Assembly (NCBI GenBank): GCA_919902745.1
Contig: CAKKRN010000248.1
Span: 1-10,400 of the forward strand
Reading direction: 5' to 3'
DNA: 10,400 nt
DNA from: Syntrophaceae bacterium
GTDB lineage: Bacteria; Desulfobacterota; Syntrophia; Syntrophales; UBA5619
Made by a program: the position numbers and the translations under genes. A model generated the notes under the pieces. It made no database searches. It was not told the DNA's origin and saw only the letters and a program-made list of their open reading frames with translations. This document shows positions 1 through 10,400 of the stretch, piece by piece; positions within the stretch are counted from its first letter, which is position 1, and every line of letters starts with the position of its first letter.

Positions 1-970
1 CCTGTTCCGGCCGGATGTGCTCGTAAGCCTGGGGGTTTTTGGCGATGGCGTTCACGTGGATTCCCCCCTTGTGGGCGAAGGCGCTCCGCCCGACGAAGGG
101 CCGGAAGGGAAGGGGACGGACATTGGCCACCTCGCCCACGTAATGGGAGAGGTTTGTGAGCTGCTGCAGGGAGCTCTCCGGGAGACACCTCCGGGCCATC
201 TTGATCTGGAGGTTTCCGATGATGGAGATCAGATCGGCGTTGCCGCACCGCTCTCCGTAGCCGTTCACCGTCCCCTGGACCATGGCCACCCCTGCCAGGA
301 CGGCCGCGAGGCTGTTGGCAACGGCGAGACCGCAATCGTTATGGGCATGGATTCCGAGCTGCCCCGCCGGAATGATGGCGGCGGCCTTCCTGACGGCCTC
401 TCTCAGGTCATGGGGCATGGCGCCGCCGTTTGTGTCGCACAGGACAATCCGGTCGGCGCCGGCGTCGAAGGCGGCCTTTAGTGTGGAAAGGGCGTACGCG
501 GGCCGGCGGCGGTATCCGTCGAAGAAATGTTCCGCATCGAAGATGACTTCCTTGTCTCGGGCTTTCAGCCAGGCTACGGAATCGCGGATCATATCCAGGT
601 TTTCCGCCAAGGGGATGCCGAGGATTTCCGTGACGTGGAGATCCCAGCTCTTTCCGAAGATGGCGACGGCCGGCGTCCCGGCTCCGAGCAGCGCGCGAAG
701 GTTCCGGCAGTTCTCGGGCCGGACGCCCGGCTTCCGCGTGCTCCCGAAGGCGGTCAGGCGGGCGTGCCGGAATGGTTGTTCCTTCACCATCTCGAAGAAA
801 CGGACGTCCTTGGGGTTGGAGCCGGGCCACCCCCCTTCGATGTAGTGGAATCCCATGTCGTCCAGGCGATGAGCGATCCGCAGCTTCTCCTCGGCCGAAA
901 AATTGACCTGCTCCCCCTGCGTACCGTCTCTCAGGGTCGTGTCGTAGATGATAACATCGGGTGATTTCAT
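1..970 (-). CDS. cimA: Citramalate synthase (isoleucine pathway), 3' end outside window
   Basis: Predicted to condense pyruvate with acetyl-CoA to (R)-citramalate, the first step of the threonine-independent route to 2-oxobutyrate and isoleucine; cytoplasmic. The first 323 codons are visible. Residues 10-16 are DTTLRDG, the metal/substrate motif that opens the DRE-TIM (HMGL-like) barrel. HAHND at 208-212 supplies the metal-binding histidines, followed by an NGYGERCGN segment, and SAFAHKGGIHV around 297-306 marks the linker after the barrel. This wording (GGWPGSNPKD near the start, HKGGIHV later) fits the long citramalate synthase branch (about 520-540 residues) better than 2-isopropylmalate or homocitrate synthase. 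The C-terminal allosteric domain lies off the left edge, so feedback residues cannot be judged. ATG at 970 is preceded by a strong AAGGAGAAGG ribosome site. An isoleucine-codon leader peptide and terminator lie directly upstream, which independently supports an isoleucine role. The main alternative is another LeuA-family synthase. Confidence 0.9.
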   Translation of the reverse strand, partial: MKSPDVIIYDTTLRDGTQGEQVNFSAEEKLRIAHRLDDMGFHYIEGGWPGSNPKDVRFFEMVKEQPFRHARLTAFGSTRKPGVRPENCRNLRALLGAGTPAVAIFGKSWDLHVTEILGIPLAENLDMIRDSVAWLKARDKEVIFDAEHFFDGYRRRPAYALSTLKAAFDAGADRIVLCDTNGGAMPHDLREAVRKAAAIIPAGQLGIHAHNDCGLAVANSLAAVLAGVAMVQGTVNGYGERCGNADLISIIGNLQIKMARRCLPESSLQQLTNLSHYVGEVANVRPLPFRPFVGRSAFAHKGGIHVNAIAKNPQAYEHIRPEQ

Positions 971-988
971 AACCTTCTCCTTTTGCAC

Positions 989-1026
989 AAAAAAATCCGT
1001 TATCGGTCGAACCTGATAACGGATTT
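989..1026 (-). terminator. Leader intrinsic terminator (attenuator) upstream of cimA
   Basis: Read on the minus strand, AAATCCGTTATC (1026-1015) pairs perfectly with GATAACGGATTT (1004-993). The stem can extend inside through GGT/ACC around a TCG loop with one bulged A. Seven T residues follow at 995-989. This is a strong rho-independent terminator, yet it lies only about 20 bases before the cimA start, so it must act as a conditional terminator in the leader rather than at a gene end. The 5' arm can instead pair with an upstream segment at 1073-1062 (see antiterminator entry). Confidence 0.88.
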
Positions 1027-1089
1027 GGTCGCTTTGACTCTGTTGTAATGAAACGCTACCCTCCGTCCAGGCCCGTATATGCAGGCCTG
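1012..1089 (-). promoter_or_regulatory. Alternative leader hairpins: 1:2 pause/protector and 2:3 antiterminator
   Basis: Minus-strand arms: arm 1 CAGGCC (1089-1084), arm 2 GGCCTGGACGGA (1073-1062), arm 3 TCCGTTATCAGG (1023-1012). Arm 1 pairs with the first six bases of arm 2. Alternatively arm 2 pairs with arm 3: CCTG with CAGG and GACGGA with TCCGTT (one G-U), with a two-base AT bulge. The 2:3 pairing uses the same bases that form the 5' arm of the terminator, so antiterminator and terminator exclude each other. Arm 1 starts at the last base of the third consecutive isoleucine codon of the leader peptide, and arm 2 ends four bases before its stop codon. This is the spacing expected of translation-controlled attenuation. 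Pairings were found by eye; energies were not computed. Confidence 0.75.
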
Positions 1090-1142
1090 ATAATTATGCC
1101 CCCAATGGCGAGGATACGGCGGCTGGCGTCTCTCATATTCAT
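1056..1142 (-). CDS. Isoleucine-rich leader peptide of cimA attenuator (28 aa)
   Basis: Short reading frame ATG 1142 to TAG 1058-1056, lying between the minus-strand promoter and the leader terminator. Its core reads RRILAIGGIIIRP: five isoleucines in 28 residues, three of them consecutive (I16-I18, codons ATA ATT ATC), plus a leucine. The end product of the pathway served by the downstream gene is isoleucine, so the peptide fits a classical attenuation leader in which ribosome stalling at isoleucine codons reports low charged tRNA-Ile. The ribosome site is not ideal: GGGA sits 10 bases before the ATG and AAAGGGAG 16 bases before. A second in-frame ATG (codon 3) is possible. The peptide itself probably has no function after synthesis. 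A chance ORF is the alternative, but codon content, position and hairpin spacing all agree. Confidence 0.75.
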   Translation of the reverse strand: MNMRDASRRILAIGGIIIRPAYTGLDGG

Positions 1143-1177
1143 ATCGAAATTGTCCCGACTCCCTTTCTGTGATTTTT

Positions 1178-1206
1178 ATCGTAATCTTATCCGGGGGATT
1201 TGTCAA
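1178..1206 (-). promoter_or_regulatory. Sigma70-like promoter for the cimA leader
   Basis: On the minus strand a perfect TTGACA (1206-1201) is followed after 17 bases by TACGAT (1183-1178), four of six matches to the -10 consensus. The T-rich stretch just upstream (about 1229-1207) could act as an UP element. Transcription would start near 1171, giving a leader of about 200 bases that contains the peptide and hairpins described here. Confidence 0.65.
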
Positions 1207-1299
1207 CGAAAATGAAACAGCAAAAAAGTAATCACCGGGCCAACCAATTTTGCTATCATGCAAGGCGGGGAAAGGGAAGGCGATATGGATAGAAACTTG

Positions 1300-1328
1300 T
1301 TGACATGTGAGTCGATCCTTCGTATCCT
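1300..1328 (+). promoter_or_regulatory. Sigma70-like promoter for carB
   Basis: TTGACA at 1300-1305 and TATCCT at 1323-1328 (four of six to the -10 consensus) are separated by 17 bases on the plus strand. The start site would be near 1335, leaving a leader of about 118 bases before carB. It is divergent from the cimA promoter; the two -35 boxes are 93 bases apart, room for a shared operator, although I see no clear palindromic site between them. Confidence 0.5.
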
Positions 1329-1375
1329 CCGCGCCATGTTCACGCTTGGTTCTTGTCGGTAAAAAACGGTTATCG

Positions 1376-1416
1376 AGCTCCTCTGCAGAATGCCCGGAGG
1401 CGTGTCGCGAGGAGCT
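1376..1416 (+). promoter_or_regulatory. Hairpin in the carB 5' leader
   Basis: AGCTCCTC (1376-1383) is perfectly complementary to GAGGAGCT (1409-1416). A smaller GCC/GGC stem could form inside the 25-base loop. No T-run follows, so it is not a rho-independent terminator. It might affect translation or mRNA stability of carB; no known pyrimidine or arginine leader motif was recognised. Confidence 0.35.
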
Positions 1417-1452
1417 TTGCCCTTGATCTCACTATAATAAAAGGACCCCCCT

Positions 1453-4656
<3,204 letters not shown>

Positions 4657-5528: not shown

Positions 5529-6341
5529 TCAACCACAGGCGGGACCGCCCTCCGCCAAGGCCGCCCGCCAGGCGTCGAGGAGATGGCCGATGTCGTCGAA
5601 AATGAAGTCGGCGCCGGCGGCCTCGGCTTCGGCCCGGCCGGACGCCCCCGTGAGGACGCAGATCGTTGTGAGCCCCGCCCGCTTTCCGCCCACGATGTCG
5701 GTCGCGACGCGGTCGCCGACGGCGGCGGTCGTTTCGGGTCTTGCCCCCATCTGGGCCATGGCCAGCTCGTACATGATCGGCTCCGGCTTCCCGACCCCGG
5801 TCGGCCGGGTTTCGGAGGCGGCCGCCAGCATCGCGACCATCGCGCCGCTTCCCGGTAAAAACCCCTCTTCCGATGGGATGTTGGGGTCGAGGTTCGTCGC
5901 GATGAAGCGGGCGCCGCCCCGGAGAAGATCAGCGGCCCGTTTGATCTTCTCGTAGGTGACCTCGCGATCCACGCTGGCGACGACGACCTCCACATCATCG
6001 TCGGCGAGGACGAATCCCTCCTCCTCCAGGGCCTGCCTGAGGGCGGCCATCCCGAAGACGTGCACCCGCGTTCCCGCCGGGTAGTCGCGGCGCAGGTAGC
6101 GGGCCGCCGCCCGGCCTGAAACCAGGATCTCGGAGGGCGAGACCTCGGCGCCCATCGCGGCGAGTTTTTTCGACCGCTCGCTCGGCGTGCGGGTCGCGTT
6201 GTTGGTGACCAGCATGAAGGGGATGGACCGTTCGCGCAGGAAGGCAAAGAACTCCCGCAGGCGGGGCATCGGTTCGCCGCCCCGGTAGAGCACCCCGTCC
6301 ATGTCGAGGATCAGATGCGTGATCTTGGTCAGAGAATTCAT
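5529..6341 (-). CDS. HAD superfamily subclass IIA phosphatase, NagD-like
   Basis: A 270-residue cytoplasmic phosphohydrolase of the NagD/4-nitrophenylphosphatase group. Motif I is D13-M-D15-G-V (nucleophile and acid/base), motif II T46-N-N, motif III K185 in GKPEP, and motif IV G209-D210 with D215 for magnesium. The long insert between motifs II and III (about residues 70-180, including FIATNLDPNIPSEEGFLPGSG) is the C2 cap of subclass IIA. Length is usual for the family. These enzymes act on small phosphorylated metabolites such as sugar phosphates, phosphoglycolate or nucleotides; the substrate cannot be told from sequence. ATG 6341 has GGAG seven bases upstream. It is the last gene of the minus-strand operon, 48 bases after the preceding gene, and no terminator with a T-run was seen after it. 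It ends close to the accessory island, so the operon's 3' boundary may have been remodelled. Confidence 0.9.
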   Translation of the reverse strand: MNSLTKITHLILDMDGVLYRGGEPMPRLREFFAFLRERSIPFMLVTNNATRTPSERSKKLAAMGAEVSPSEILVSGRAAARYLRRDYPAGTRVHVFGMAALRQALEEEGFVLADDDVEVVVASVDREVTYEKIKRAADLLRGGARFIATNLDPNIPSEEGFLPGSGAMVAMLAAASETRPTGVGKPEPIMYELAMAQMGARPETTAAVGDRVATDIVGGKRAGLTTICVLTGASGRAEAEAAGADFIFDDIGHLLDAWRAALAEGGPACG

Positions 6342-6389
6342 CGTTTTTCTCCGGTTTTCCGTTTGGAATGGATTATCTCCGCCGATGGA

Positions 6390-7391
6390 TCATGATGCGA
6401 TCGTGGGGAGGAGAGGGGCGAGCCCCGGGAAGAGCGCCCGCTCTTCCCGCCATTCGTAGATTAGGATGTCGATATTCAGCCGCTTCAGCTTGTCCCGGAG
6501 GGCGACCTCCGGCGGCCGGGGGAGAATCAGGATCAGCAGGGGATTGTCGGGCAGACTCAGGCCGTTCAGCAGAAGCTGCGTCGCCCCGGCGTGAAGGTCC
6601 GAGAGGGTCGTCTCCGTCCGGACCTGAAAGACCGCCCGGATCCGACCCGCCCGGTCCATCACCAACAGATCCTGGTTTCCGTCATTCCCCGCCCTCAGGC
6701 CGGCTTGCTTCAATGTTTCGGCCAGATCCCGGACGATCAGGCCGTGGTCGCATTCGGCCCCGGTCTCCCTCTCCTGTTCGCGGTAGCGGGCGCCGATCAG
6801 CTCTTCACGGAGGCGAAGTTCGCCGAAGGTCAGCTCCGCCTGCGCGGAGCGGGTGGCGGCCGTCTCCTTGATCCGGGCGATCTTCCGGACGAACTCGGCG
6901 ATCTGCCTGGCAAAGCGCGGGGATTGGAGAATCCCGATGACGGCGACCGGCGTCTCCTCGCCTCCGTCATCCATCACCTCCCAGACTCCCCGGTAGTGGT
7001 TTTCGAAGAGCGATTTTCCGATCCCCTTTCTCCCGCCGCCTAACTTTCCCCGGTGCACGACGTAGAGACGACCGGCGCGGTCCTGGGCGAAGGCGCCGCC
7101 CGTCCGCCGGTCGACGCCGCAGAGGGGGAAATTGATCTCGCAGGTGATCGCGATGGCGGCTCCCCCCTCCGGTCGGCCGATCCCGAAGCCATTCCAGTAG
7201 CGGCTTCCGGCGATCTTTCGGGAGAAGGACCAGATGCCGAGGCTATCCGACCAGGCGACCTTCGCCTTTTCGCTCGCCCCCGGATGGCCGAGCTTCACAG
7301 GGATCGTAGCGGCCGTCACAGGTTTGAAACTCCTCACGAACTGACTCTGGCAGCGTTTGATCGCCGCCTCGTCTGTGATGACTTTCAGCAT
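6390..7391 (-). CDS. Uncharacterised protein with PD-(D/E)XK nuclease-like C-terminal core
   Basis: A 333-residue soluble protein without signal peptide or membrane segments; not assigned to a named family. The N-terminal part (about 45-175) is rich in strands and carries SRYWNGFGIGRP (63-74), CEINFPLCGVDRR (84-96) and VHRGKLGGGRKGIGKSLF (112-129). A charged, probably helical linker runs about 165-230. The C-terminal part has the order of a PD-(D/E)XK fold: D241-LLV, then a strand ending Q256-V-R258, a helix with Q272-LLLNG, a hydrophobic strand LLILILPRP (285-293), and a final IDILIYEW strand (307-314). Where the family usually shows (D/E)-x-K, this protein has Q-x-R, so nuclease activity is doubtful unless the protein is a variant. 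It starts 13 bases after the second ABC permease (AAGGA six bases before the ATG), so it is likely co-expressed with the exporter; the functional link is unknown. Confidence 0.85.
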   Translation of the reverse strand: MLKVITDEAAIKRCQSQFVRSFKPVTAATIPVKLGHPGASEKAKVAWSDSLGIWSFSRKIAGSRYWNGFGIGRPEGGAAIAITCEINFPLCGVDRRTGGAFAQDRAGRLYVVHRGKLGGGRKGIGKSLFENHYRGVWEVMDDGGEETPVAVIGILQSPRFARQIAEFVRKIARIKETAATRSAQAELTFGELRLREELIGARYREQERETGAECDHGLIVRDLAETLKQAGLRAGNDGNQDLLVMDRAGRIRAVFQVRTETTLSDLHAGATQLLLNGLSLPDNPLLILILPRPPEVALRDKLKRLNIDILIYEWREERALFPGLAPLLPTIAS

Positions 7392-7404
7392 GGTTTGTCC
7401 TTTA

Positions 7405-8526
7405 TCAATCCAGACGTTTCTGGAAACGCCCGACCGCTCCGGTGAAGACCATGATGCCGAGGACGGCCAGGGCGGCGTACTGGGGCCAGAGGATGTGCAG
7501 CCCCACCCCCTTGAGAAAGATGCCGCGGATGATGACCAGAAAATAGCGCAAAGGGTTCAGGTATGTCAACCATTGAACGACCTCGGGCATGTTCGCGATC
7601 GGGAAGACGAAGCCGGAGAGCATGAAGAACGGGAGGATGAAGAAGAAGGTGGTCATCATCGCCTGCTGCTGGGTCTTCGACACCGTTGAGATGAAGAGCC
7701 CGATGCCCAGGGTGCTCAACAGAAACAGGCAGGTCGCCAGGAAGAGATCGAGGACGCTCCCCGCCAGCGGGACATCGAACCAGTTCAGCGCGAGCAGCAT
7801 GACGAGGACCATCTGGCCGATCGCGATGATCGTATAGGGGATGGTCTTGCCGATGATCAGTTCGATCGGTTTCAGCGGCGTCACGATGAGCTGCTCCATC
7901 GTCCCGTTTTCCCGTTCCTTGATGATCGCGATGGAGGTCAGAAGCAGCGAGATCAGCATGATGACGAAGGCGACGATCCCCGGGACAAAGAAATTCTGGC
8001 TGTCGAGGTTCGGGTTGTACCAGGCCCGGATGCGGGCGTCGATCTTCCCGTAACGGAGGTCGCGGCCATAGAGCTCGCGGGCCAGCTCCGTGTTCAGTCG
8101 GTCGAGGACCATCACTGCGTAGGAGATCCGGATGGAGGCCATGTTGCTCATTCCGCCGTCGGCCAGGATCTGGACGTCGGCCGTCTTCCCCCGGCGGATG
8201 CGGCTGCTGAAATCGGGGGGGATCCGTATCCCGATGTCGGCGTTTCCCTTCAGAAACAGCTCCTCCATGCCGCGGGCGTCCGCCGGCCGGTGGGTGATCC
8301 GGAAGATCCCGCCCGCGGTGAAGGCGTCGGCGAGAAGCCGGCTTTCCCGGGTCTGCGCCTGGTCGATCAGCGCGACGCGGATGTCCTTGATATCGTAGTT
8401 GACCACGTAGCCGAAGACGAGGAGCTGGATCAGCGGCGCCATGATCAGGATCGGACGGCTCCGCTTGTCGCGGAAGAGCTGGATGAATTCCTTGCGGACC
8501 ATTTCCCGGATGCGAAGCCAGCTCAT
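7405..8526 (-). CDS. ABC-2 type exporter permease (second subunit, YbhR/YbhS-like)
   Basis: A 373-residue inner-membrane subunit of an ABC-2 efflux pump. One membrane segment lies at about 25-43, followed by an extracytoplasmic domain of roughly 130 residues, then five more segments: about 180-202, 223-248, 259-280, 289-311 and one near the C terminus (HILWPQYAALAVLG onward). The ERENGTMEQL motif at 204-213, just after the second segment, is the hallmark coupling region of this permease family, and FFMLSGFVFPIANMP marks the fifth segment. Together with the ATPase and the preceding permease it would form a heteromeric exporter of the YbhFSR/YhhJ kind, often drug or lipid efflux; the substrate is unknown. 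ATG 8526 overlaps the preceding stop codon (ATGA), with an AGGGAGGGG ribosome site, so translation is probably coupled. Confidence 0.93.
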   Translation of the reverse strand: MSWLRIREMVRKEFIQLFRDKRSRPILIMAPLIQLLVFGYVVNYDIKDIRVALIDQAQTRESRLLADAFTAGGIFRITHRPADARGMEELFLKGNADIGIRIPPDFSSRIRRGKTADVQILADGGMSNMASIRISYAVMVLDRLNTELARELYGRDLRYGKIDARIRAWYNPNLDSQNFFVPGIVAFVIMLISLLLTSIAIIKERENGTMEQLIVTPLKPIELIIGKTIPYTIIAIGQMVLVMLLALNWFDVPLAGSVLDLFLATCLFLLSTLGIGLFISTVSKTQQQAMMTTFFFILPFFMLSGFVFPIANMPEVVQWLTYLNPLRYFLVIIRGIFLKGVGLHILWPQYAALAVLGIMVFTGAVGRFQKRLD

Positions 8527-9656
8527 AGCCCCTCCCTCTTCAGGACGATGACGTTCAGGGCCGCGAGAATTGCAAACATCCCCGTCAGAACCAGCAGGTC
8601 GGGCCAGAGGTGGGAGAGGCCGAGGTTCCGGAGGTAGATCCCGGAGAGGATGTCGATGTAGTAGGTCGCCGGGACGAGGTAGGTGACGAGCTGGAGGACC
8701 TTCGGCATGTTGATCACCGGGAAGACGAAGTTCGACAGCAGCAGCGACGGGAGGTAGGTGAGCAGGACGGCCGCCTGGTTTGCGACCATCTGGGACTTCG
8801 TCACCGACGAGATGAGGAGCCCGAGCGTCAGCGCGACCAGAATATAGAGTGAGGAGGCCAGGATCATCAGCCAGAAGCTTGCCTTCATCACGATGCCGAA
8901 GAGGGTCTGCCCCATCAGGACGGCAACGAGGACGTCGATGAGGGCGATCAGAAAGTAGGGGATCGCCTTTCCCACGAGGAATTCCCCCGCCCGGATCGGG
9001 AGCGACCGGATCGTCTCCATCGTGCCGTTTTCGTACTCCCGGGCGATGACCAGCGAGGTCAGCATCGCCCCGACAATCATGATAATGATCGCGATGATCC
9101 CCGGGATGATGAAGTTCCGGCTTTCCAGGTCCTCGTTGAACCAGACCCGGATCCGCCCCTCCACGGGCGGCCGGATTTTCTCCATCCCCTGCCGGTCGAG
9201 GAAATCGGCGAGGAGATTCCGGTTGTAGTTCTCAATGAAGCCGCTGATGTAGGCGCGGGAGATCCCGGCAAAATTGGGGTCGCTGCCGTCGAGGAGGATC
9301 TGAACGGTCGTCTCCCGGTCCGCCCGGAGATCGGCGGTCCAGCCGGCGGGGATGATCACGGCCAGCGTCGCCCGGCCGTAGTCGAGCGCCTCCGTTACGG
9401 CGTTGGTGTCCGGTAGCTGGGCGGTGATCCGGAAGTAGGAGCCGGCGCCAAGGCGGCGGATGAAGTCCCGGCTCAGGTCCGTCCGGTCCTGGTCAACAAC
9501 GATCGTCTCGATGTGCTCCACGTCGAGGCTGAGCGCATAGCCGAACAGCAGGATGAGGAGCAGCGGGATCGCGAAGGCCAGGTAGAGGCTCCGGAAATCC
9601 CGGAGCAGGTGGTAGATCTCCTTGCGGGCGATCGCCTGGATATTTCTCGGATTCAC
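8523..9656 (-). CDS. ABC-2 type exporter permease (first subunit, YbhS/YhhJ-like)
   Basis: A 377-residue inner-membrane permease, paralogous to the next gene in the operon. Its first membrane segment spans about 23-43 (LAFAIPLLLILLFGYAL), a large extracytoplasmic domain fills about 45-178, and membrane segments follow from N181-F-I-I-P-G onward. EYENGTMETI at 207-216 matches the family coupling motif, and SNFVFPVINMP corresponds to the fifth segment. The gene begins with GTG at 9656 (not ATG), preceded by AAGGA at eight bases, and starts 15 bases after the ATPase stop. The two permeases are clearly related in layout but different in residues, which points to an old duplication and a heterodimeric pore. 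In known ybhGFSR-type operons a HlyD-like periplasmic adaptor gene is expected upstream; here it would lie beyond the right edge. Confidence 0.93.
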   Translation of the reverse strand: MNPRNIQAIARKEIYHLLRDFRSLYLAFAIPLLLILLFGYALSLDVEHIETIVVDQDRTDLSRDFIRRLGAGSYFRITAQLPDTNAVTEALDYGRATLAVIIPAGWTADLRADRETTVQILLDGSDPNFAGISRAYISGFIENYNRNLLADFLDRQGMEKIRPPVEGRIRVWFNEDLESRNFIIPGIIAIIIMIVGAMLTSLVIAREYENGTMETIRSLPIRAGEFLVGKAIPYFLIALIDVLVAVLMGQTLFGIVMKASFWLMILASSLYILVALTLGLLISSVTKSQMVANQAAVLLTYLPSLLLSNFVFPVINMPKVLQLVTYLVPATYYIDILSGIYLRNLGLSHLWPDLLVLTGMFAILAALNVIVLKREGL

Positions 9657-9671
9657 GCCTGGTTTCCTTCC

Positions 9672-10400
9672 CTATTTTCCGGTCTTCATCAACGTGATGA
9701 AGGCGTCGTTGAGGTCCGCGTCCGGCTTTCCCGGACAGGTTCCGCGGATGATCTCCTCCGGACTTCCCGCGGCGACAATCCTCCCCTCGTTGATCATCAC
9801 GATCCGCCCGCAGTGGCGCGCCTCATCCATATAGTGCGTCGTGACAAAAACGGTGATTCCCTCTCCGGCGATCCGGCCGATGAAATTCCAGAAATGGCGC
9901 CGGGTGATCGGATCGACGCCGGAGGTCGGCTCGTCGAGAAAGAGGATCCGCGGGCGGTGAAGCAGCGCACAGCCGAGGGCGAGGCGCTGGCGCAATCCCG
10001 GCGGGAGCTCCCGGGTCAGGCGGTCGCGAGCCTCCGCAAGGCGCGTCATGTCGAGGATCCAGGCGCTCCGTTCCGCCCACTCCTTCTCCGGCACGCTGTA
10101 CACCCCGAGATAGAAGCGGAGGTTCTCCGCGGGGGTCAGATCCTCGTAGAGGGAGAACTTCTGAGACATGTAGCCGATCGCGTGTTTGACCTCCTCCGCC
10201 TCGGTAACGATGTCGTAGCCCGCCACCTTCGCCTCTCCCGACGTGGGGGTGAGGATCCCGCAGAGCATCCGGATCGTCGTCGATTTTCCGGAGCCGTTCG
10301 ACCCGAGAAAGCCGAAGATCTCGCCGGGCCGGACCGTGAAGGAGATCTTATCGACGGCGGTGAAGGCCCCGAAGCGCTTTTCGAGCTCCCGGACGACGAT
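9672..10400 (-). CDS. ABC exporter ATP-binding protein, 5' end outside window
   Basis: Cytoplasmic ATPase driving the two downstream permeases. The visible 242 residues form a nearly complete nucleotide-binding domain: Walker A GSNGSGKST (10304-10278), Q-loop in GYMSQKFSLYEDLT, Walker B RILFLDEPTSG (around 9950-9918) with D-loop GVDP, and H-loop in TTHYMDEA. The signature position reads ELPPGLRQRLALG instead of the canonical LSGGQ; variation here is known in YbhF-like exporters. The C terminus (DLNDAFITLMKTGK) matches the short tail of this group. Because the visible start (IVVRELEKRFGAFTAVDKISF) is typical of the beginning of an ABC domain, either only a few residues are missing or this is the second domain of a YbhF-like double ATPase; the window cannot decide. 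The permease gene follows after 15 bases. Confidence 0.93.
   Translation of the reverse strand: MVVRELEKRFGAFTAVDKISFTVRPGEIFGFLGSNGSGKSTTIRMLCGILTPTSGEAKVAGYDIVTEAEEVKHAIGYMSQKFSLYEDLTPAENLRFYLGVYSVPEKEWAERSAWILDMTRLAEARDRLTRELPPGLRQRLALGCALLHRPRILFLDEPTSGVDPITRRHFWNFIGRIAGEGITVFVTTHYMDEARHCGRIVMINEGRIVAAGSPEEIIRGTCPGKPDADLNDAFITLMKTGK

Follow-up and report, generated by a model that had tools for sequence, protein, structure and literature searches.

The citramalate synthase gene (cimA) of a Syntrophaceae bacterium is preceded by a short isoleucine-rich leader ORF and by competing RNA helices, an arrangement kept across the class Syntrophia, and it is very probable that this leader is a ribosome-mediated transcription attenuator which controls cimA via the supply of isoleucyl-tRNA. 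The anatomy of the leader, the conservation of its frame and of its Ile codons, the covariation of the mutually exclusive helices and the positional fit of the Ile codons were all established by computation, and from them we infer that the leader is translated, that ribosomes stall in it and that read-through changes. The sequence-only reading of this DNA, which proposed isoleucine attenuation of cimA, is supported, with the leader conserved and both the terminator and its competing antiterminator conserved and covarying.

In the proposed mechanism, ample charged tRNA-Ile would allow the ribosome to reach the leader stop codon and to cover segment 2, upon which the terminator (3:4) would form and transcription would end before cimA. 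With charged tRNA-Ile scarce, the ribosome would stall at the run of Ile codons that immediately precedes the protector hairpin and would melt that hairpin, and the freed segment 2 would pair with segment 3 (the antiterminator), so that RNA polymerase would continue into cimA.

Anatomy of the cimA leader in the window

The window, i.e. the whole analysed stretch of 10,400 nucleotides, carries on its minus strand, in this order (coordinates rechecked), a promoter-like site, the leader ORF, a hairpin with U tract, and cimA. The individual features are:

1206..1178, minus: promoter-like site TTGACA-17-TACGAT (promoter scan)
1142..1056, minus: leader peptide ORF of 28 codons with 5 Ile codons, product MNMRDASRRILAIGGIIIRPAYTGLDGG
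1097-1089, minus: regulatory triplet ATA ATT ATC (Ile-Ile-Ile), from the sequence; a stall here gives the antiterminator (folding)
1068..1089, minus: protector (1:2) hairpin CAGGCCUG-CAUAUA-CGGGCCUG, from the fold with the ribosome upstream of the triplet
1062..1074, minus: antiterminator segment 2, GGGCCUGGACGGA, overlapping the 3' arm of the protector hairpin (fold and conservation)
1008..1023, minus: segment 3, UCCGUUAUCAGGUUCG, common to antiterminator and terminator (fold and conservation)
989..1026, minus: intrinsic terminator, a 12-bp hairpin with arms AAATCCGTTATC and GATAACGGATTT, followed by a U tract
2..970, minus: cimA, citramalate synthase, start at 970, 323 codons, cut by the contig end

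The 28-codon frame with five Ile codons, three of them consecutive, which the sequence-only reading had placed between promoter and terminator in front of cimA, was confirmed on the sequence; its Ile codons start at 1115 (ATC), 1106 (ATT), 1097 (ATA), 1094 (ATT) and 1091 (ATC), and the protector hairpin adjoins the 3' end of the Ile triplet. The product of the gene, as far as it extends before the contig end, scores 463.4 bits against TIGR00977 (cut-off 450), which identifies it as CimA. Two promoter-like sites were found in 900..1500, compared to 0.7 expected from shuffles. A simple terminator scan of the same interval flagged no terminator, although the hairpin at 1026..989 is visible both in the RNA fold and in the comparative data. 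The leader folds with z = -4.06 (1 of 200 shuffles equally stable), and the spacing from GGGAG to the leader ATG is long, at 16 nt.

A short ORF with Ile codons, as a ribosome-mediated transcription attenuator calls for, is present in the window, where at least five Ile codons in one ORF were reached by 11 of 200 dinucleotide shuffles of the leader; for the window alone the Ile count is therefore marginal and within reach of chance. Since the single-sequence count is not decisive, it is the conservation across relatives that makes the leader ORF real. In a DNA search of the window's own genome, the 561-base upstream stretch matched only itself. One relative from the same genus is a Syntrophaceae MAG; its locus L160 and the locus L015 of genome G009 are one and the same DNA. 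Elsewhere in the window (5529-10400, minus strand), we observed a HAD-IIA family hydrolase (scoring above the TIGR01460 cut-off), a 333-aa protein, and an ABC transporter comprising an ATPase and two permeases of the ABC-2 type; this ATPase and one of the permeases are similar to portions of RbbA, with scores under the RbbA cut-off.

Conservation and coding signal of the leader in class Syntrophia

When 61 genomes were searched for CimA, 53 strong hits were read from the table, and 50 of the corresponding cimA upstreams were inspected regardless of their content (G019, G029 and G050 were left out). The leader is present in 47 of these 50 unselected upstreams, a count that includes two loci (L013 and L051) cut by contig ends yet showing the leader's Ile codons, and it is absent in three. 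One of the three (L009) has neither promoter nor hairpin; by eye, the second (L027) retains promoter and terminator, and in the third (L005) the promoter -35 is fused to the terminator. The sequences of L005 and L027 suggest that the leader was lost by deletion, and cimA may be constitutive or shut off there. Low Ile counts were seen in L010 (2 codons) and in L014 and L038 (3 each). An alignment of cimA upstreams had been named as the way to check the attenuation reading, and in the unselected class loci it returned an Ile-codon ORF kept with synonymous change; the contrary pattern, hairpins kept while the Ile codons are lost, was looked for and appeared in exceptions only, such as L027 and L005.

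From the 47 class leaders we built a covariance model (R1), which finds matches in 102 of 109 class genomes (that of the window and 108 others that are at least 90% complete), while a CimA hit was found in 100 of the same 109. An R1 match is present in 99 of the 100 class genomes with a CimA hit, the sole exception being G046, the genome of L027; not all matches lie at cimA, as G050 has its single match, and G107 its listed match, before ilvB. By reading of the table, all 18 class families sampled have at least one genome with an R1 match, and of the 100 class cimA loci that extend upstream by 190 nt or more, 97 have TTGACA ahead of the element. Among 80 named CimA loci, R1 matches the six closest to the window (L159-L164), which are titled as Deltaproteobacteria, Syntrophaceae or Desulfobacteraceae, and has no match in the other 74 (Paenibacillus, Nitrospinaceae and others), a few of which have little or no upstream DNA. 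No leuA or ilv genes were found behind cimA at the 102 class cimA elements, with at least 500 nt beyond cimA at only 37 loci and the window's cimA itself cut. One R1 match (L295) was rejected as probably false, since its site lacks an Ile-rich ORF and is followed by no branched-chain gene. The scripted ORF calls were wrong or empty for L106, whose true reading is MNTSRAIIISSIIICIPRGGLAVE, and for L051, which is cut by the contig end; the regular expression for terminators missed that of L061 (same genome as L266).

Over 106 distinct class leader ORFs, Ile accounts for 812 of 2814 in-frame codons (28.9%), compared to 80 of 2708 (3.0%) and 41 of 2708 (1.5%) in the other two frames and 1042 of 16563 (6.3%) in cimA bodies. 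The frame comparison is biased, as the ORF caller takes the Ile-richest ORF, whereas in the shuffle test every shuffled sequence is subject to the same selection. In that test, 87 of 102 class cimA ORFs have an Ile count that no more than 5 of 200 shuffles attain, and the other 15 are the window (L001), L004, L006, L010, L014, L016, L038, L039, L048, L056, L256, L271, L027, L051 and L106, the last three of which are not valid leader calls. At the mainly-Ile columns outside the anchors (-5 to -3 and 2), variation amounts to 0.49-1.22 bits at codon positions 1-2 and to 1.55-1.89 bits at position 3, with ATT, ATC and ATA all in use at mainly-Ile leader columns; judged from the aligned sequences, this third-position variation is a mark of selection on the amino acid. 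The class cimA leaders as a whole comprise 27.2% Ile, 5.9% Leu and 3.8% Val. The share of ATA among Ile codons is 244 of 812 (30%) in class leaders versus 74 of 1042 (7%) in cimA bodies, and AUA as a near-invariant leader codon was dropped as a candidate, since ATA is enriched and not invariant. Decoding by the AUA-reading tRNA may matter for class leaders, or base composition may explain the ATA excess.

Competing helices and the position of the ribosome

An intrinsic terminator lies between the leader ORF and the first structural gene, and an antiterminator shares the 5' arm of the terminator and excludes it, both of which are defining features of an attenuator. On the 47 aligned leaders, 97.5% of the terminator cells are paired and 30 have changed on both sides (reached by 0 of 500 shuffles). 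For the antiterminator (CCTGA..TAATGG type with CCGTTATCAGG), the paired share of cells is 86.7%, as against 31-51% when slid, and it has 9 double-change cells (0 of 500 shuffles) and a covariation score reached by 1 of 500; its pairs with a double change number 3, which is not unusual (138 of 500 shuffles reach it). In the window, the antiterminator requires a 2-nt bulge and the duplex calculation favours another register. Cognate pairing was further assessed by swapping segments, where an element's own segment 2 was compared to segment 2 from elements with another terminator arm (166 of 170 elements usable). In 98 of 101 class cimA elements, pairing with segment 3 is stronger for the element's own segment 2 than for the foreign ones (mean -15.7 versus -11.8 kcal/mol). 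The same holds for 18 of 19 ilvB elements in the class and, outside it, for 14 of 17 cimA elements and 13 of 16 ilvD elements. In a number of class leaders, the sequence of the protector hairpin is CATAGGAGG; it resembles a Shine-Dalgarno site and in some of these leaders stands shortly before an ATGG near the leader stop.

We then folded the RNA left free by a ribosome at a given codon at two stages, with the full terminator present or before segment 4 is made. In the window, with the A site on ATA or ATC, the antiterminator is the best fold (-25.9 kcal/mol) despite the terminator sequence being present, while a ribosome at the first Ile codon leaves protector hairpin and terminator to form (-39.1) and one at the stop codon leaves the terminator (-18.6). 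Before segment 4 is made, the probability (P) that segment 3 pairs with segment 2 in the window is 0.004 for free RNA, 0.44-0.47 for the first two Ile codons, 0.80 for each codon of the triplet and 0.02 for the stop codon. Over 100 class cimA leaders at the same stage, P averages 0.40 for free RNA, 0.88 at the best Ile stall and 0.08 at the stop, and P of at least 0.5 is reached in 38, 98 and 4 leaders, respectively. As computed, a stall at the regulatory codons thus gives the antiterminator and the stop codon gives the terminator, which is the switch expected of an attenuator. That the antiterminator is already favoured without a ribosome in 38 of the 100 counts against attenuation.

With the full-length RNA at equilibrium, a ribosome at the best Ile stall lets the antiterminator win over the terminator in only 19 of the 100 class cimA leaders, including that of the window, which implies that in most leaders the switch must be kinetic, i.e. 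a matter of timing. The full-length equilibrium fold was set aside as a sole test, because the terminator wins in most leaders and the stage before segment 4 is more relevant. Across class cimA and ilvB leaders, Ile makes up 762 of the 2019 codons (37.7%) where a stalled ribosome yields P of 0.7 or more, in contrast to 48 of the 676 codons (7.1%) with P below 0.3, and peaks 64-90 nt before segment 3. Outside the class, branched-chain codons follow the same positional trend in ilv leaders, and more weakly in cimA-leuA leaders (Ile 19% versus 15%, Leu 29% versus 16%).

Element family across the phylum and relation to known systems

Within the class, a second element precedes ilvB(N)CD: 21 of 22 second sites start with ilvB, and in the search L132 starts with ilvC. 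One such element lies in the window's own genome, at C206:8835-8954, with ilvB cut by the contig end. The class ilvB leaders comprise 27.3% Ile, 3.3% Leu and 8.1% Val, two of them (L136 and L137) being mixed. Across 394 phylum genomes, R1 matched 63, of which 44 lie outside the class, and a second covariance model of the cimA-leuA type (R2) matched 47, with G474 as the only one that R1 had missed. The 40 outside sites that were inspected come from 35 of the 44 matched genomes and comprise 14 cimA-leuA, 3 cimA (short context), 16 ilvD-ilvB, 3 ilvB and 2 leuA sites as well as 2 without gene assignment. The gene names denote similarity to reference proteins taken from L122, L143, L144 and the window; the IlvB, IlvN, IlvC, IlvD, CimA, LeuA and LeuC references each score above an NCBIfam equivalog cut-off, and the LeuD-like reference scores above a subfamily cut-off and below the LeuD equivalog. 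The operon types elsewhere in the phylum are cimA-leuACD, with Ile and Leu codons, and ilvDBNC, with Ile, Leu and Val codons. Outside the class, cimA-leuA leaders comprise 15.8% Ile and 24.6% Leu, and those of ilvD-ilvB operons 20.0% Ile, 18.1% Leu and 12.1% Val. Because the shares of Ile, Leu and Val differ by operon type in this way, the regulatory codons follow the products of the operon.

A broader reading, which we hold to be evenly balanced between true and false, is that one ancestral branched-chain attenuator was passed between operons across Thermodesulfobacteriota and its codons rewritten with operon content, including recruitment before acyl-CoA dehydrogenase-EtfBA genes in two lineages. 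As part of the same evenly weighted reading, the codon sets would be mostly Ile (cimA alone, Syntrophia ilvBNCD), Ile then Leu (cimA-leuACD) and Ile/Val/Leu (ilvDBNC(-cimA)). Leaders that change codons with operon content would amount to a natural experiment on the amino-acid choice of attenuators.

Sensing of tRNA-Ile or isoleucine directly by a T-box or metabolite riboswitch, with the short ORF incidental, is very unlikely: the leader RNA is structured and partly base-conserved, many class sequences having a stretch like GGCATAATTA and a loop that reads CATAGG, but its variation follows codon position and the first hairpin is unlike between the class and the cimA-leuA group. Furthermore, no Rfam family matched window 800..1600 at E up to 5, T-box covariance models matched neither this region nor eight related loci, and the only matches in those eight loci were two weak ones, Thr_leader (28.5 bits versus a gathering score of 55, in L122) and mir-451 (25.9 versus 66.5); the former was also the best score among the Rfam 15 amino-acid operon leaders, none of which reached its gathering score in the window or the eight loci. 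We give equally little weight to arrest of the ribosome by the nascent leader peptide in response to a small molecule, as in TnaC, where nascent peptide arrest is combined with tryptophan sensing. An Ile-Ile-Ile or Gly-Ile-Ile core is common to many class peptides, yet peptide length, start and C terminus are variable, the leader ends inside the hairpin loop in L016-L018 and several residues later in others, and the residues shift to Leu and Val in relatives as the operon changes. A chance ORF over an ordinary constitutive hairpin or terminator, to which the shuffles matching the window's Ile count (11 of 200) would point, has a negligible probability given that 47 of the 50 class cimA upstreams show the pattern again, and that it comes with synonymous variation, frame specificity and cognate pairing of the segments.

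The attenuator reading of the cimA leader has close counterparts among known systems. Like the E. coli ilvGMEDA and ilvBN attenuators, the cimA leader combines a run of branched-chain codons, a protector, an antiterminator and a terminator before a branched-chain biosynthesis gene; the E. coli leaders have mixed or Val/Leu-rich branched-chain codons and serve ilv operons, whereas the class cimA leaders are mostly Ile and serve cimA. Branched-chain T-box leaders also couple uncharged tRNA to a terminator, through direct tRNA binding and with no coding leader. The Corynebacterium ilvB-II uORF motif, which has enriched Ile, Leu and Val codons, a terminator and an antiterminator, is described as attenuated by uORF translation (PMC10272879; PMC11109978) and, unlike the cimA leader, belongs to another phylum and targets ilvB; ilvB-OMG and Leptospira ilvB motifs are named alongside it in the same sources. 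Among the open-access papers listed as matches, no title or opening of an abstract was recognised as concerning a cimA leader or attenuator, although some of the elements may have been predicted comparatively before. The paper in which citramalate and leader peptide occur together has valine production in a methanogen as its stated subject (PMC13158618), and the terms citramalate, Geobacter, Syntroph, Deltaproteobacteria and ilv are all absent from the main text of PMC2965389 and PMC4833913.

The proposed mechanism is classic ribosome-mediated attenuation, for which cimA would be a new target. The citramalate route, in which isoleucine is made independently of threonine, would thereby be tied to the charging of tRNA-Ile in a way familiar above all from the ilv, leu, his, thr and trp operons. 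As a compact RNA without an Rfam 15 match, the element could serve as a marker of branched-chain operons in part of the phylum, and the genes behind it may point to unknown genes of isoleucine metabolism.

At two loci, L261 (G063:C29:99537-99667, Ile-rich) and L140 (G469:C278:3846-3962, Ile and Leu), the element stands before genes for an acyl-CoA dehydrogenase, EtfB and EtfA, in place of branched-chain genes. Their proteins are closest or near-closest to the acryloyl-CoA reductase components AcrC, AcrB and AcrA and score below those cut-offs (the dehydrogenases 472 and 434 bits versus 640), and each of the two genomes also has a cimA leader. If recruitment to these genes is true, they would be part of an isoleucine-linked pathway.

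Beyond cimA, a same-strand frame with the YrdC/Sua5-like motif YPTDTVYG (e.g. L030:3303-3911) was seen in 26 of the 37 class loci with at least 500 nt there, and the one tested scores above the cut-off of TIGR00057, L-threonylcarbamoyladenylate synthase. This synthase supplies the precursor for t6A37 in tRNAs that decode ANN codons, Ile included. Methylation of t6A has been reported to affect thr attenuation in E. coli (PMC4132733).
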